Source: Victivallales bacterium (GTDB lineage Bacteria; Verrucomicrobiota; Lentisphaeria; Victivallales; Victivallaceae). From it: 36,903 nt of DNA. The notes under the pieces were generated by a model that was not told the DNA's origin, ran no database searches, and saw only the letters and a program-made list of their open reading frames with translations. Both the position numbers and the translations under genes were made by a program. Numbering within the stretch: position 1 is the first letter of the stretch; every line of letters begins with the position of its first letter. The stretch lies in contig JAISIP010000090.1 in NCBI GenBank assembly GCA_031261965.1, forward strand, positions 1 through 36,903, written 5' to 3'. This document shows, in pieces, positions 5,520-30,633 of the stretch.

Positions 5520-5641
5520 GAGGGTTTGCATTTTTTTTTGAAAAATCAACTTAAAAACAGCCCAAAACCCCACAAAACAACCCTAAGTGCGTTCATTTTC
5601 AATGCAATGTAGTTTTTAGAGATACCCTATTAGAAAAAAAG

Positions 5642-7117: not shown

Positions 7118-7143
7118 CCTGTCTTGTCACCCAGCAATCTACA

Positions 7144-7312
7144 GAGCTAATTGCAAAACTACTTTTTTGACATGATTTTGACGGTACTATTGAGAAATTT
7201 TTGTTCTTTGGTAAGCTTCAAAGCGTAGCAGCACTACGTAAAAAAGCGAGTCAAAGAAGCAAAAAAAATCAATAGAACTCAAAAGCGAACCAAAATAGTT
7301 TGTAATTAGCTC
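7144..7312. mobile_element. Family B palindromic element, full copy 1 (169 bp)
   Basis: A 169-bp intergenic element with terminal inverted repeats. The left end GAGCTAATTGCAAAACTA matches the reverse complement of the right end (GAGCTAATTACAAACTA) with one change and one gap. Inside, TATTGA near 7188 pairs with TCAATA near 7268, TTCTTTG pairs with CAAAGAA, and the centre has CGTAG-CAGCA-CTACG, so the whole could fold into one imperfect hairpin. TACA flanks both ends (7140-7143 and 7313-7316), consistent with a target duplication. No open reading frame of note. It lies between the convergent 3' ends of the sigma factor and the sugar dehydrogenase. A second copy of identical length is at 28462-28630. 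Confidence 0.78.
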
Positions 7313-7343
7313 TACAATTCTGAAGCCATGAAAAAGACTGTCA

Positions 7344-11985: not shown

Positions 11986-12026
11986 TTGAACTCAAAAGCG
12001 AATCAAAACAGTTTTGCAATTAGCTC
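11986..12026. repeat. Solitary right end of a family B element
   Basis: About 41 bp match the right terminus of the 169-bp family B element: CTCAAAAGCGAATC, then AAAACAGTTTTGCAATTAGCTC. The left part of the element is absent. It lies 22 bp after the jag stop codon and before tRNA-Pro's promoter region. Confidence 0.65.
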
Positions 12027-12048
12027 TTCAGCTTGCTTTTATCGGGAT

Positions 12049-16654: not shown

Positions 16655-16712
16655 CGAAACAAAAGCACCAAAGCGACCAAAAAGCGAACCGAAATAGTTT
16701 TGCAATTGACTC
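16655..16712. repeat. Right-hand remnant of a family B element
   Basis: About 58 bp resemble the right half of the 28462-28630 element: CACGAAACAAAAGCACC, AAAGCGACCAAAAAGCGAACC and AATAGTTTTGCAATTGACTC. The left half is not recognisable. It sits 11 bp downstream of the tRNA-Leu 3' end. Confidence 0.6.
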
Positions 16713-16723
16713 TTGGGGAGATA

Positions 16724-16855: not shown

Positions 16856-16889
16856 TCGCGCATCAATGTTTTTTAAGGATTTTTCTTTA

Positions 16890-17053
16890 GAGCTTATCAA
16901 CTAATAATGGAAATGTTATGATGAAGCACCGGGAATCAGGCACGCAGTTGAAAAAAATCGGGGATATTGGAAGAAATATCTACGATTTTTTTCGACAAGT
17001 GAATGGCTAATCGGGGCAAGTCAGAGCGTTTTCGTTTATTAGTTGATAAGCTC
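16890..17053 (+). mobile_element. Family A MITE-like element, copy 1 (164 bp)
   Basis: Perfect 18-bp terminal inverted repeats, GAGCTTATCAACTAATAA at the left and its reverse complement at the right. The direct repeat TTA flanks it (16887-16889 and 17054-17056) as a target duplication. The centre holds a near-perfect palindrome in which TTGAAAAAAATCG pairs with CGATTTTTTTCGA around GATATT/AATATC. It has no transposase. The GAG ends and T-N-A target fit the IS1031 group of the IS5 family as I know it, which is an inference. A 165-bp copy in opposite orientation lies at 18363-18527. The right-hand TTA is also the TAA stop codon of the neighbouring oxidoreductase. Confidence 0.88.
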
Positions 17054-18232
17054 TTAGCCGATTTGACCGTTTTCAAAATATTCGATCACATCCGGCGAAA
17101 GCGGCGGAATATCGCAACGGTTGCAACCGCCGCGCATGGATTCGTGTCCCTTGACACCCGTCGCAACCGAATTTCGCGCCGCTATCGGCGACGTGTTGGT
17201 CTTTCTGCCGCAACGGATAAAATCGATGAAATTTTGAACGATAAAAACATCCGAGCCGCCATGAGTGCCAGCTAACGGTTTAATATTGTAGATTATATCC
17301 GGCGTTTCACGCGGCCCGCGACGATTCCAGACATGAATCTCCGCCTGACCGTTGTCCCCGATATTTTCGATCCGCCCTCTTGTGCCGATAAACGTGTAGT
17401 TGCGTTCGGAATCCGGCGAATAATGCGATTGGGTATAACACGCCTGAGTGCCGTTATCCAGTTGCATTAAAATCATATTGTGGTCTTCCACATCGATAAT
17501 CGGCGAAAAACCGGTCTGCTCAAGCGGCGGATAATGTTCGTCCGACCACCCGGAATAATCACCGCTGCCGATTGTATTCGGCGGACGGCGGGCGCATTTA
17601 TCGTAAACCGAGAGCATTCCCATCCCCACCACCGACTTGGTGTATCCGCCCATAAGCCAATGCATTACATCAATGTCGTGTGCGCCTTTTTGCAGCAACA
17701 ATCCGTTGCTGTACCGTTGCTCCGAGTGCCAGTCATGAAAATACGCGTCACCGCCGTATCCGATAAAATGGCGACACCAGCCGGAGCGGATTTCACCGAT
17801 CGCGCCGGAGTCAATTATCTCTTTCATCTTCAAAATAACCGGAAAATGGCGCATATTATGACCGATAAACAGCTTGCTTTTACTCTCCATTGCCGCTTTG
17901 AGAATACGGTCGCAACCCGCAATCGTGATCGCCATGGGTTTTTCCAGATAAACATGCTTGCCGGCATACAGCGCAGCCACAGCCTGCTCTTCGTGGCAAA
18001 AGTCCGGGCTGGAGATAAAAACCGCGTCAACTTCGGGATTTTTCAGCAACTCTTGATAATCGGAGTATTCCGCTATTTTTTCGTTCGGAAATTTCTCTTT
18101 GAATTTCGCGAACGCTTTGGGATCAGGGTCAGCTCCAGCGATGATACGCACACCATCTTCCGGCTTATGCGACAACCAGCCGTTTTGTCCGCGTCCACCG
18201 ACCCCGATCAAACCGATAGTCAACTTTTTCAT
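17054..18232 (-). CDS. Gfo/Idh/MocA family oxidoreductase (392 aa)
   Basis: An NAD(P)-dependent sugar or inositol-type dehydrogenase with an N-terminal Rossmann fold and a C-terminal alpha/beta domain. The nucleotide-binding loop is IGVGGRG (about 9-15), SSPDFCHEEQ follows beta-4, the conserved EKP is at 97-99, and the catalytic-region motif KGAHDIDVMHWLMGG lies in the second domain. No signal peptide is seen, so it should be cytosolic. The substrate cannot be read from sequence; relatives in PVC bacteria act in breakdown of sugars and cyclitols. The ATG at 18232 has no strong ribosome site. The gene is bracketed by inverted family A elements, and its TAA stop coincides with the target duplication of the left copy, so the coding sequence was left intact. 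Confidence 0.9.
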   Translation of the reverse strand: MKKLTIGLIGVGGRGQNGWLSHKPEDGVRIIAGADPDPKAFAKFKEKFPNEKIAEYSDYQELLKNPEVDAVFISSPDFCHEEQAVAALYAGKHVYLEKPMAITIAGCDRILKAAMESKSKLFIGHNMRHFPVILKMKEIIDSGAIGEIRSGWCRHFIGYGGDAYFHDWHSEQRYSNGLLLQKGAHDIDVMHWLMGGYTKSVVGMGMLSVYDKCARRPPNTIGSGDYSGWSDEHYPPLEQTGFSPIIDVEDHNMILMQLDNGTQACYTQSHYSPDSERNYTFIGTRGRIENIGDNGQAEIHVWNRRGPRETPDIIYNIKPLAGTHGGSDVFIVQNFIDFIRCGRKTNTSPIAARNSVATGVKGHESMRGGCNRCDIPPLSPDVIEYFENGQIG

Positions 18233-18245
18233 TTTAATATACCCT

Positions 18246-18268
18246 AAAAATAGTTTTGCACTCAGCTC
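18246..18268. repeat. Solitary family B right end
   Basis: AAAATAGTTTTGCACTCAGCTC matches the last 22 or so bases of the family B element. It lies only 14 bp upstream of the oxidoreductase start, in a spot where its promoter or ribosome site would be expected. Confidence 0.55.
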
Positions 18269-18362
18269 TGCTACTTAAGAGAACATCTTAATCGGATTTT
18301 TCAACTCAAAAATTTACTTTTTGCACGATATTAGATTATTTTTGCAAAATAATCCATATTAA

Positions 18363-18527
18363 GAGCTTATCAACTAATAAACGAAAACGCTCTGACTTGC
18401 CCCGATTAGTCATTCACTTGTCGAAAAAAATCGTAGATATTTTTTCCAATATCCCCGATTTTTTTCAACTGCGTGACTGGTTGCCCGGTGCTTCGTCATA
18501 ACATTTCCATTATTAGTTGATAAGCTC
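18363..18527 (-). mobile_element. Family A MITE-like element, copy 2 (165 bp), inverted
   Basis: Reverse complement of the 16890-17053 element with about ten differences by eye (mostly in one 15-bp patch, including a 1-bp indel). The 18-bp terminal inverted repeats are perfect and the central palindrome is retained. TAA flanks both ends (18360-18362 and 18528-18530), the same target as TTA for copy 1 when orientation is taken into account. It lies between two oxidoreductase genes on the minus strand, 8 bp beyond the stop of the upstream one. Confidence 0.88.
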
Positions 18528-18538
18528 TAAGGCTACCT

Positions 18539-19534
18539 CTAAAGGGTGATCCAGCTATGTGAAGCTGCTGCCCGGTAAAGTGCCTCCATAACCACGTTGC
18601 GTTGCGCCGCCTCAGATGCGGACACCAACGGAACGTTTTTGCCCTCAAGCGCGTCGAGGAACAAATCAAACGCATGGGGCAATTCGTCGGGAAGATTCTT
18701 CCACGGAGTCTCTCCGTCGGCATTTTCCAGCTTATTTGACTTGACAAAAAGCTCTTCATTGCGAATATAGGCAAAACCTTCGGTTCCGCTGACTTCACAA
18801 GTAATCGGGCATATGAGATCAACCCATGCGCCGGACATGGTCGCAACCATTCCATCAGGGAATCTCAACAACGCGCTGCCGGTTTCATCGCATTTATCGC
18901 CATAACGCCCGGTTACGACCGCGATGTCGGCGGTCACTGATTCCGGCATACCGAAGAGCCACATAAGTATATCCAGCGAATGCGTCCCAAGGTCGCCGAA
19001 CGCGCCGCACCCGGCGATCTCCGGGTTGGTCATCCAGCGATAATCGGTATCGAACCAGCCTCCGAGCGAACCGCAGTGACAGTTAACATGCCTAACTCGG
19101 GTGATTTTGCCGAACACGCCGGATTGCACCATCTCTTTTAACGCCATGTGGGGCGACCTTCCGCGCATAAAGTACCCGGTCTGAAAAAGCACTCCGCTTT
19201 TTTCTACGACCTTTGCCATTTCAAGTGCGTCCGAGGCGGCAAATCCGAGCGGTTTTTCGACAAAAAGGTGCTTCCCGGCGGTGGCGGCAAACGGCACAAT
19301 ATCTTTATGCAGATTGGTTTCGGAGCAGACAATGATCGCATCGACCTCGGGGTCGCGCCACAAAGCGTCACACTTCGAAACGCTCTTACAGTTAAGTTCC
19401 AAGGCGTATTTTTTCGCCAAATTGCAGTCATGATCCCAAAGCGCGACCACTTCAACACTGGAACGCAACTTTATGCGACGGACAAAATCCGGCAGATGAA
19501 TATGACTAAGCCCGGCGATAGCGATTTTTTTCAT
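18539..19534 (-). CDS. Gfo/Idh/MocA family oxidoreductase (331 aa)
   Basis: A second, divergent member of the family. The N-terminus reads IAIAGLSHIHLPDF, so the usual GxGxxG is replaced by GLSHIH, a variant known in some subfamilies. SETNLHKD, the conserved EKP (93-95), TGYFMRGRSPHMALK and GDLGTHSLDILMWLFG follow in normal order. Length is typical (about 330-350). It is on the same strand as the 392-residue oxidoreductase and upstream of it, but more than 300 bp and two repeat elements lie between, so coordinate transcription is uncertain. The substrate is unknown. No strong ribosome site precedes the ATG. Confidence 0.88.
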   Translation of the reverse strand: MKKIAIAGLSHIHLPDFVRRIKLRSSVEVVALWDHDCNLAKKYALELNCKSVSKCDALWRDPEVDAIIVCSETNLHKDIVPFAATAGKHLFVEKPLGFAASDALEMAKVVEKSGVLFQTGYFMRGRSPHMALKEMVQSGVFGKITRVRHVNCHCGSLGGWFDTDYRWMTNPEIAGCGAFGDLGTHSLDILMWLFGMPESVTADIAVVTGRYGDKCDETGSALLRFPDGMVATMSGAWVDLICPITCEVSGTEGFAYIRNEELFVKSNKLENADGETPWKNLPDELPHAFDLFLDALEGKNVPLVSASEAAQRNVVMEALYRAAASHSWITL

Positions 19535-28391: not shown

Positions 28392-28435
28392 TTTGCCCCC
28401 CTTGTCTCTATTTTCTAAAGGCTATCTCTAAAAAT

Positions 28436-28461
28436 CGCCTTTTGACATGATTTTGACGGTA
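28436..28461. repeat. Extra partial family B left fragment next to copy 2
   Basis: CCTTTTGACATGATTTTGAC at 28438-28457 repeats the sequence found inside the family B left arm at about 7164-7182, and again at about 28480-28499 within copy 2. Copy 2 therefore appears to be inserted in or beside a fragment of another copy. Confidence 0.6.
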
Positions 28462-28630
28462 GAGCTGATTGAAAAAATACCTTTTGACATGATTTTTATC
28501 GGCGACTTGAATGATTTTGCTCGTTTTGAAAACGCTTAAAGCGTAGCAACGCTACGTAAAAAAGCGTTTCAAGGCGACAAAAGCACCAAGGCGACAAAAA
28601 AGCAAACCAAAATAGTTTTGCAATCAGCTC
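28462..28630. mobile_element. Family B palindromic element, full copy 2 (169 bp)
   Basis: Same length as the 7144-7312 copy. The ends are GAGCTGATTGAAAAAATA at the left and the reverse complement of GAGCTGATTGCAAAACTATT at the right, with matching inverted repeats. The centre is a perfect GCGTAGC-AAC-GCTACGT-type hairpin, and TTGAAAACGCTT pairs with AAGCGTTTCAA. TA flanks both ends (28460-28461 and 28631-28632). Its first base and the flanking TA together make the TAG stop codon of the putative glycoside hydrolase. Confidence 0.78.
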
Positions 28631-30633
28631 TAATAAGCAAACTCCACCATCGAGTGACAGAGCAACTCCGAAACGGTGAATTCGATTCGTCCGTCCTTTT
28701 CGAGATAATCAACCGCCTCGCCTTGCGGCACTAAACGCACCGATTTGACCGGATGAGGCAATTTTACCGAAACAGTTACATTATGCAACGGCACGAGTTC
28801 CTCGATCACTTCGATCATTTTCCCTCCTGCATACGGATTGTTCGGCAACGGAACTTCCCCCCCGCCGCGGGCAATTGTGTTGGCATAGAGCAAGTGCAAA
28901 ACCGCACGTTTTTCTTTGACTTGGTCAAAAAGCGTCACGCGTCCTGTGCTGGGAAGCGAGGTTTTTAACTGCAAATCCGCGCCGATAAAACGCCGAATAG
29001 CGTTGGTGACAAAATTCCGCAAAACAACCGGCCCGACATTGCGGTAGATCGAAAATACCGGGTTGGCAAAATAAAGAATTTGCCCGCTCATAACTCCCGC
29101 ATCAAAGCCGGACGCTTCCGTCTGATACGGCGCATGCTGATGGCTGCAAAAATGGCGGACATCACGATTGAAATAGGGATCGTAAATCTTGCCTAATGAT
29201 ACCCCTTCGCTCAATTTAATGCGTCGCGAAGACACATACATGAGAAACGGCGTTTTGATGTAATCCAACGCAAACTCATTGGACGCTTCGATGTAATCAA
29301 TCGAATATGGACTTTGCCCGGCATCACTGAACGGCAAGCGCAACATGAATTTTTCGCCCTTGGGGTCAAGTCCGCTACCGCCGGAAAGAATCAACTTTCC
29401 GCCTTTGGCGATAAACGCTTCGAGCTTAAGTCGAAGTTCTTCATCTATCGACACTTCATCAGGCAACAGCAAAAAACGGTATCGATCGAAATCCATGCCG
29501 TTATCGACCACGTCAAACGGAATATGCGCCTCAAGTAAAATCCGCGCCGCCCCCACATCGGACGGAAGTTCGCGCTTGCCCGATACTCCTGCCGCCGAGA
29601 GGATCGCAAGCTCGGCAAGAGACTTCACATTGTCGCACCACGGCTCTTTTTGCTCTATATCCGCATAAGCTTCGCCGATCATGTCATAAGTGCTTTGATC
29701 CAGCTTGCCATCGGGGTGGAGCTGGTCGCCGATACTGCATTTCGAGCCGTTTGCGATCATTGCGGCACACTCGTAACGCAACGCGTTCGGATGTTTAAAG
29801 CCGCCGAATTCTCCCCATGTTGTATGAAATTTGCCGGTCATGCCGAGAAAATCCAGCCCGAGATTCCGGCTGTACGCCGCCGAAAACGGATAGTGGTCGT
29901 AGCCCCAGCCGCCGGTCGGCAAACTCTCAAGCTCAAGATGGCTGAAGTACTTCAGAATCCCGGTATCACCGATAGTCACATGACCGCTGTTATGAAATAT
30001 CGGCATGGACGGGTTTAATTTCTTCGCCGCCGCAGTGGTTCTAACATAGTAATTTTCAAGAACTTTACGGGCAAACAATATCCGATCGCCCTCCTGCTCC
30101 GGATCAAGCCCAGAGTCAAGCATGCCTTTGATGCAACGCGGACAACAACATTGGTTCTGATTGATAATGTCGAGAAAAATCCCGTCCGCCTCGGGAAACA
30201 GCGCGGCGGTTTCTTCGATCTGGTCGCACAACACGTCAAGATACGGCGTATTAAAGCAAAGTTTGATAAAACCTACGCGCAACGGGTTGTAAGATCTGCC
30301 CTCCGGCGAGTACTCATTCCAGTCGGGATGCTCCATGGACAAGCGGTAGTTGAATCCGGCGGTGATGTACACGGGGACGTTTATATTGATCTCTTTTGCC
30401 GCGTCCATTTGCTCTCTAAGCAAATTGAACTTCAAATGCGGGTGCATTTTACCTACCTTGGTCGGATGATAACTCCAGCCGTGATGGCAAATCGAAAAGC
30501 ATGTGATCGAATCGACATGCGCTTTTTTCAGCTGCTCTTGCCACTCTTTGCGATTGAATTTCTCGCCGATTCCGGCAATATCCGGCGAAGTGTGAAAATC
30601 AAGATGAACCTGACGAAATCTTAGATGATGCAT
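28630..30633 (-). CDS. Putative glycoside hydrolase, GHL6-type barrel with beta-galactosidase-type trimerisation domain
   Basis: A 667-residue protein without a signal peptide. Residues about 1-330 look like a (beta/alpha)8 barrel of the hypothetical glycosyl hydrolase 6 group (QVHLDFHTSP, VDSITCFSICHHGWSYHP, PVYITAGFNYRLS, ADGIFLDIINQNQCCCPRC with an acidic residue at 155 and a Cys cluster at 162-167). Residues about 370-560 resemble the GATase-like trimerisation domain of GH42 enzymes (LEAHIPFDVVDNG, FLLLPDEVSIDEELR, GGKLILSGGSGLDP). A C-terminal beta domain follows. Substrate and catalytic residues are unknown. It starts 2 bp after the HAD phosphatase stop, so it is translated in the same unit. 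The stop codon abuts a family B element and may be made by it. Confidence 0.7.
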   Translation of the reverse strand: MHHLRFRQVHLDFHTSPDIAGIGEKFNRKEWQEQLKKAHVDSITCFSICHHGWSYHPTKVGKMHPHLKFNLLREQMDAAKEININVPVYITAGFNYRLSMEHPDWNEYSPEGRSYNPLRVGFIKLCFNTPYLDVLCDQIEETAALFPEADGIFLDIINQNQCCCPRCIKGMLDSGLDPEQEGDRILFARKVLENYYVRTTAAAKKLNPSMPIFHNSGHVTIGDTGILKYFSHLELESLPTGGWGYDHYPFSAAYSRNLGLDFLGMTGKFHTTWGEFGGFKHPNALRYECAAMIANGSKCSIGDQLHPDGKLDQSTYDMIGEAYADIEQKEPWCDNVKSLAELAILSAAGVSGKRELPSDVGAARILLEAHIPFDVVDNGMDFDRYRFLLLPDEVSIDEELRLKLEAFIAKGGKLILSGGSGLDPKGEKFMLRLPFSDAGQSPYSIDYIEASNEFALDYIKTPFLMYVSSRRIKLSEGVSLGKIYDPYFNRDVRHFCSHQHAPYQTEASGFDAGVMSGQILYFANPVFSIYRNVGPVVLRNFVTNAIRRFIGADLQLKTSLPSTGRVTLFDQVKEKRAVLHLLYANTIARGGGEVPLPNNPYAGGKMIEVIEELVPLHNVTVSVKLPHPVKSVRLVPQGEAVDYLEKDGRIEFTVSELLCHSMVEFAY

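Follow-up and report, generated by a model that had tools for sequence, protein, structure and literature searches.

The window, by which we mean the whole 36,903-nucleotide stretch of Victivallales DNA that was analyzed, contains two copies of a MITE family. We are highly confident that these are independent insertions of a non-autonomous, IS5-type MITE that is moved in trans by an IS5-family transposase. The family is real and young; it is a new family of an ordinary kind. It adds to the Lentisphaerota a MITE family together with a candidate mobilizer.

In the model that we favor, an IS5-family transposase supplied in trans would recognize the 18-bp ends and mobilize the MITE, which would be joined into a YTNAR site (N = A or T) with duplication of the TNA. 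The MITE is non-coding, with an interior that forms a long imperfect hairpin unrelated to the interior of the IS. The pair in the window would be two separate insertions into neighboring non-coding sites, one of which coincides with the stop codon of an oxidoreductase gene, where the target duplication (TSD) would preserve the stop.

The two elements and their surroundings

Element 1 (16890..17053, plus strand) is 164 bp long and has 4 differences from the family consensus. Element 2 (18363..18527, minus strand) is 165 bp long and inverted relative to element 1. Both are short, as is expected of MITEs, and both have a central palindrome and perfect 18-bp terminal inverted repeats (TIRs) with the sequence GAGCTTATCAACTAATAA, where MITE repeats may be perfect or nearly so. 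The TIRs are at 16890..16907 (plus) and 17036..17053 (minus) in element 1 and at 18363..18380 (plus) and 18510..18527 (minus) in element 2. At up to 3 mismatches the 18-bp TIR occurs 4 times in the window, compared with 0.04 expected from shuffles. The TSDs of element 1 are TTA (16887..16889 and 17054..17056) and those of element 2 are TAA (18360..18362 and 18528..18530). The center of element 1 is a terminator-like hairpin with A-tract and T-tract arms (16947..16996; RNA fold -22.4 kcal/mol, z -8.2), and the corresponding hairpin of element 2 is at 18420..18469. No ORF of at least 100 aa was found inside the 164 bp of element 1, so it has no transposase gene.

An earlier note on this DNA had described a MITE-like pair without a transposase, and its coordinates, lengths, TIRs, palindrome, TTA and TAA duplications and opposite orientation were all reproduced. 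The note had put the differences between the two elements at about ten. We count 6 (5 substitutions and 1 single-base gap), so the two are 96% identical; the family mean is 8.

Between the elements there is, as the note had it, one oxidoreductase gene (GFO_IDH_MocA; 17054..18232, minus strand), which encodes a Gfo/Idh/MocA-family protein of 392 aa (Pfam PF01408, PF22725 and PF02894). Its TAA stop codon (17056-17054 on the minus strand) is one copy of the TSD of element 1. A second Gfo/Idh/MocA-family gene (18539..19534, minus strand) is transcriptionally upstream of the first and ends 8 bp from the TSD of element 2. An Rfam search of the window gave two tRNAs only.

The family in its own genome

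The genome is a Victivallaceae-kin MAG of 2.38 Mb in 209 contigs that is 89% complete and broken at repeats. A genome-wide search with the 18-bp terminus, which the earlier note had suggested, found 48 exact ends, and 71 at up to 3 mismatches compared with 3 in the control. The family occupies about 40 places in this assembly, with about two dozen copies near full length. Many copies sit at contig ends, as is expected because the repeat breaks the assembly.

Dispersed copies with target duplications are a further mark of a MITE, and 20 of the 22 copies with both flanks have identical 3-bp flanks (10 TTA, 9 TAA and 1 TTT), where a chance match would occur in about 1.6% of copies. The earlier note had said that copies lacking these duplications would point to old conserved structures, and such copies are the exception. 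Among MITE copies in relatives, 9 of 10 also have identical 3-bp flanks. Read in the TAA direction, the empty-site context has a pyrimidine at -1 in 20 of 26 cases and a purine at +1 in 25 of 26, and the +1 purine is present in 12 of 12 cases among the 22-bp palindromes that are described below. The target of the MITE is YTNAR (N = A or T), with the TNA duplicated.

Copies are about 4 changes from their own consensus, mostly 2–5, while the genomes of relatives differ by 17–27%. Judged by these distances, the family is a young burst in this genome, which agrees with the description of the two elements as recent.

Some copies have unusual forms. MITE copies are interrupted by, or fused to, a second MITE-like family at L022/L060 (contig C36), L024/L059 (C146) and L025/L055 (C187), and these nested insertions give a relative order of insertion. 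A 36-bp element (L058:1458-1493, or G000:C198:3257-3292) consists of two directly abutting ends with TAA TSDs, placed right after a stop codon, and is a deletion derivative of the MITE family. Another short end-bearing element (L064, from G000:C42:10460 onward), directly after a TAA stop, has an interior strong hairpin, then eight T and a shortened right end; it resembles a MITE remnant joined with a terminator.

The second MITE-like family is far commoner, with 522 ends CAGTTTTTAGAGRTANCC in the own genome (at most 2 mismatches; control 2), and occurs in the window at 18531-18543, 5615-5627, 28420-28432 and other places. Its full elements are 166–168 bp with GGGTATCTCTAAAAACTGG ends and apparent 4-bp TSDs (TTCA, TCAA, GTTA, TGTA, ATAA, TTGA), and no transposase with its ends was found in the own-genome sequence that we read. 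A third dispersed family, of 171–173 bp with AGAGCTAATTGCAAAACTAT ends, has 94 ends across the genome when up to 3 mismatches are allowed (control 0) and is found in the window at 7143-7314, 28461-28631, 12008-12027 and 16694-16713.

Relatives and the candidate mobilizer

We scanned genome contigs for a TNA next to the 18-bp end, and the relatives that this named are Victivallaceae and Victivallales. Diverged kin of the MITE, with nearly unchanged ends and TNA TSDs, are present in G009 (81–83% identity) and in G004 and G008 (73–75%). We judge G008 to be the type strain of Victivallis vadensis, DSM 14823.

The scan also found IS copies with identical 18-bp ends and TNA on contigs of JAQULZ, JAAYPP, CASEFP, CASEYW and CALXRI, so the MITE, as expected of its kind, has the ends of an autonomous IS. 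At one end of these copies the start of an ORF follows (MAQARLKTWEITDEF, MATTRLRTWEITDEF or MATTRLRTWEITDEFWAKVETY), and the other end is preceded by the end of an ORF (...EKTACAYNGLLYLAATMITMNKI... or ...YEKTACAYNGLLYLAATMITMNKIMAIYPKL and the stop); these are the start and end of an IS5-type transposase. The sequence common to the MITE and the IS is the 18-bp ends only. The exact-end copies run off the ends of their contigs or, at L107, are truncated, and none of them gave an intact transposase. The left IS end was found at 97–100% in G009 and G013, which belong to different genera, and was not found in the own assembly, itself 89% complete and broken at repeats.

A complete 970-bp relative of the IS is present in G011, with one mismatch per end and unequal flanks (TTA and TAA). 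It has two overlapping ORFs in different frames (DUF4096/DDE_Tnp_1/NF033580). OrfA matches PF13340 and OrfB matches PF01609/PF13586, and both halves match NF033580 (transpos_IS5_3) at 82 and 102 bits. Because the protein is split, each half stays under the cut-off of 110 set for the whole protein. The presumed mobilizer should have an IS5-type DDE transposase, and the G011 copy has one. G005, from the same genus as our genome, has a decayed IS copy whose right end is one mismatch from the window MITE end, and G026 has complete, more distant copies with ends GA..TTATCCCTAAATAA and TTA TSDs. In G028 (L243-L259) there are at least ten C-terminal ends that match the G011 IS (L156), mostly at contig ends; this IS is likely multicopy, and possibly active, in that genus.

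Searches of the own assembly (89% complete) with PF01609, PF13340, IS-end DNA and OrfB found no transposase that has these ends. The one intact transposase that they did find, on contig C196 (DUF4372 and DDE_Tnp_1), was rejected as the parent, being of another kind. Phage and plasmid collections gave no match to the MITE. TIR matches in viral contigs L141-L145 are probably due to chance because they have neither a TNA flank nor a MITE or IS interior.

We infer from the matching ends that the MITEs were moved by the exact-end IS of other Victivallales, or by a lost or unassembled copy of that IS. Against this model, the only parent-like IS that is complete, that of G011, is mismatched in its TIRs, differs in its two flanks and encodes its transposase in two frames. 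The IS5 assignment of the earlier note is borne out by the exact-end copies, with their IS5-type transposase start and end, and by the two-ORF IS5 transposase of G011. The search that it proposed, for a matching IS with an intact transposase, found identical ends on incomplete IS copies in other genera and none in the own assembly.

The note had also named the IS1031 group of the IS5 family, which has GAG ends and TNA duplications. That much agrees, since the MITEs have GAG ends with TTA or TAA in 19 of the 22 two-flank copies, and the complete G026 relatives have TTA. The transposase of the IS1031 group is usually in a single ORF (PMC3196728), and here the agreement fails, because G011 has two ORFs that overlap in different frames. 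The literature knows IS5-family members with mixed features of several groups (PMC2516522, PMC3196728). The G011 gene is possibly damaged. With the relative's transposase split in this way, the IS1031 subgroup is a candidate placement only.

Insertion at stop codons

The outer end of a MITE can fall on a stop codon in two ways: the TAA duplication is itself the stop, or TTA and the first G of the element produce TAG. This was the case in 7 of 17 judged copies (P 0.0035) and in 13 of about 43 when one-sided copies were included (P 0.002); among the permitted TTA/TAA sites the share is 12.9%. The excess was similar when permitted sites were restricted to the YTNAR context. With only sites up to 100 bp downstream of a stop it had P 0.05, and within each copy's own intergenic gap it was not significant (expected 6.2, observed 7, P 0.39). 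We regard the own-genome excess as suggestive only because it was noticed in the same data and with a crude ORF caller. YTNAR contains TAA or TTA before the R, and the terminal G makes TAG, so an insertion at a stop codon would regenerate the stop and be harmless. The excess suggests how a TNA-targeting element may multiply in a compact genome while sparing its genes.

In the V. vadensis orthologue of the gene between our elements, the corresponding stop codon carries a 22-bp palindrome, GAGCTTATTTAGGGATAAGCTC, with TAA on either side. There are nine dispersed 22-bp palindromes (GAGCTTATCCCTRAATAAGCTC or its complement) in G008 and nine in G005 (L260-L275, and L211 from about 5391). These 22-mers are absent from 19 other genomes and from the reversed control. 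We read 17 of them: the TTA or TAA flanks match in 12, and 9 are exactly on a stop codon. The share to compare with is 10–11% when all permitted sites are counted (P about 2e-5 to 3e-5) or 27% for those immediately downstream of stops (P 7e-5 to 3e-4).

Each 22-mer is equivalent to one G026-type 18-bp end that runs, across an ATAA repeat, into the final bases of the opposite end, and because of this it reads as a nearly precise excision, a process known for Tn10. We believe that the 22-mers are probably excision scars of an IS5-type element more than 22-bp mobile units. A broader idea is that transposases of this IS group prefer stop codons, with the 22-mers of G005 and G008 being either recurrent scars of excision or mobile units smaller than any yet known. 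We hold this only tentatively and think it rather unlikely. Of all that was seen here, the 22-mers and the excess at stop codons most deserve to be followed.

The hairpin and the question of a host function

An excess at stop codons is also what one might see if the elements served the host, as RNAs or terminators kept by selection at gene ends. The fold points the same way: the whole 164-base element folds end to end (RNA -76.1 kcal/mol, z -10.8), and covariation is present across subfamilies, with 14 pairs changed on both sides compared with 6.0 in shuffles (0 of 500) and 2–5 in slid controls. The covariation set consisted of 18 elements from five genome sets, and the ends contribute only some of the pairs. 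The central A-tract/T-tract hairpin is strong in the own and G009 copies, where it resembles a two-way terminator, and a terminator role is a guess.

However, the V. vadensis copy has only a weak central hairpin (z -1.1), a scan for terminators did not pick the hairpin up, and copies are also found between divergent genes. Covariation can come from quasi-palindrome correction or from selection on a transposing master copy. Within the own genome, paired and unpaired positions change equally (0.35 and 0.34 events per position). Individual copies thus drift freely, and we saw no sign there of host selection on the hairpin. For these reasons we consider a host function improbable and conclude that the hairpin is kept in the transposing lineage or restored by quasi-palindrome correction, and not by selection on single copies.

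The inverted pair

The earlier note had treated the bracketing of one gene by inverted elements as a special arrangement, in which recombination could flip the 1.3-kb gene segment or the pair could move as a composite. Two inverted copies that are 96% identical and 1.3 kb apart would suit this reading. With about 40 copies in 2.38 Mb, however, 0.96 neighboring pairs this close are expected, with a probability of 0.62 for at least one and of 0.38 for an inverted one (for 35–45 copies, 0.7–1.2 pairs, 0.52–0.72 and 0.30–0.45). Two MITEs flanking one gene are what chance predicts, and there is no special arrangement.

A composite transposon would have a single TSD at its outer ends. Here the outer TSDs differ (TTA on the left, TAA on the right) and each element has its own matching pair, so the elements did not arrive as one unit, and we rejected a composite insertion of the pair and gene. 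TTA and TAA are reverse complements, so the TSDs would look intact after a flip. In addition, the neighbors of the bracketed gene are ordinary and on the same strand, and the pair was seen in no relative.

The A at 16942 (partner 18474) is private to this pair among 25 distinct copies, and the two elements are otherwise in different subgroups. Exchange or gene conversion between copies may have left this base, and a recurrent transition by chance is also possible. A switch or composite is not supported, and we give it a very low probability.

The 10 orthologues of the bracketed gene that we found in relatives all lack these elements at the stop codon. This empty-site comparison, which the note had proposed, was limited to that stop codon because neighboring genes are not conserved, and only such empty stop codons in diverged orthologues bear on the mobility of the MITE. 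The reading of the elements as old conserved structures at fixed places has next to no probability, since the family is present in several genera but its copies are far closer to each other than the genomes are, their TSDs are intact, and the 10 orthologues lack the elements at the stop codon.

Comparison with known systems

A literature search on Victivallis and insertion sequences found no paper, by title or abstract, on Victivallis or its mobile elements. The sibling subfamilies in several genera, including the cultivated V. vadensis, together with the identical-end IS, make this a testable case of cross-mobilization.

RUP of Streptococcus pneumoniae is an IS630/TA-type element that is probably mobilized by IS630-Spn1, which has matching ends. 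Our family differs from it in having IS5-type ends, 3-bp TNA TSDs and a Lentisphaerota host. The likeness is that RUP is also small (107 bp) and non-autonomous, with TIRs, TSDs and a long stem-loop, in about 100 intergenic copies, and it provides the best evidence among bacterial repeats that MITE TIRs serve transposition (PMC2229807). ERIC and Correia (NEMIS) repeats are similar in being intergenic, of 100–160 bp, with end-to-end stem-loop transcripts and TSDs; they differ in their TA-type termini and hosts, and effects on mRNA are reported for them (PMC2229807).

Our elements are distinguished from MITEAba12 of Acinetobacter by their 3-bp TNA duplications, GAG ends and full-length hairpin. 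The IS elements related to MITEAba12 belong to the IS5 family. MITEAba12 is likewise short (113 bp), with ends that it has in common with IS elements such as ISAba12; it is reported to be mobile, can give host genes stop codons, and has 9-bp TSDs and GGCTTTG ends, while its secondary structure is weak and it lacks a predicted terminator (PMC6382973).

IS1031/IS427-type elements such as ISLxx6, ISCaa8, ISCaa9 and ISCaa13 are about 0.9–1.0 kb with an IS5 DDE transposase; ISLxx6 has a 3-nucleotide target, and two-ORF IS5 members are known (PMC2516522, PMC3196728). These elements encode their transposase, whereas the MITEs in the window do not and have only their ends in common with the IS of their relatives.
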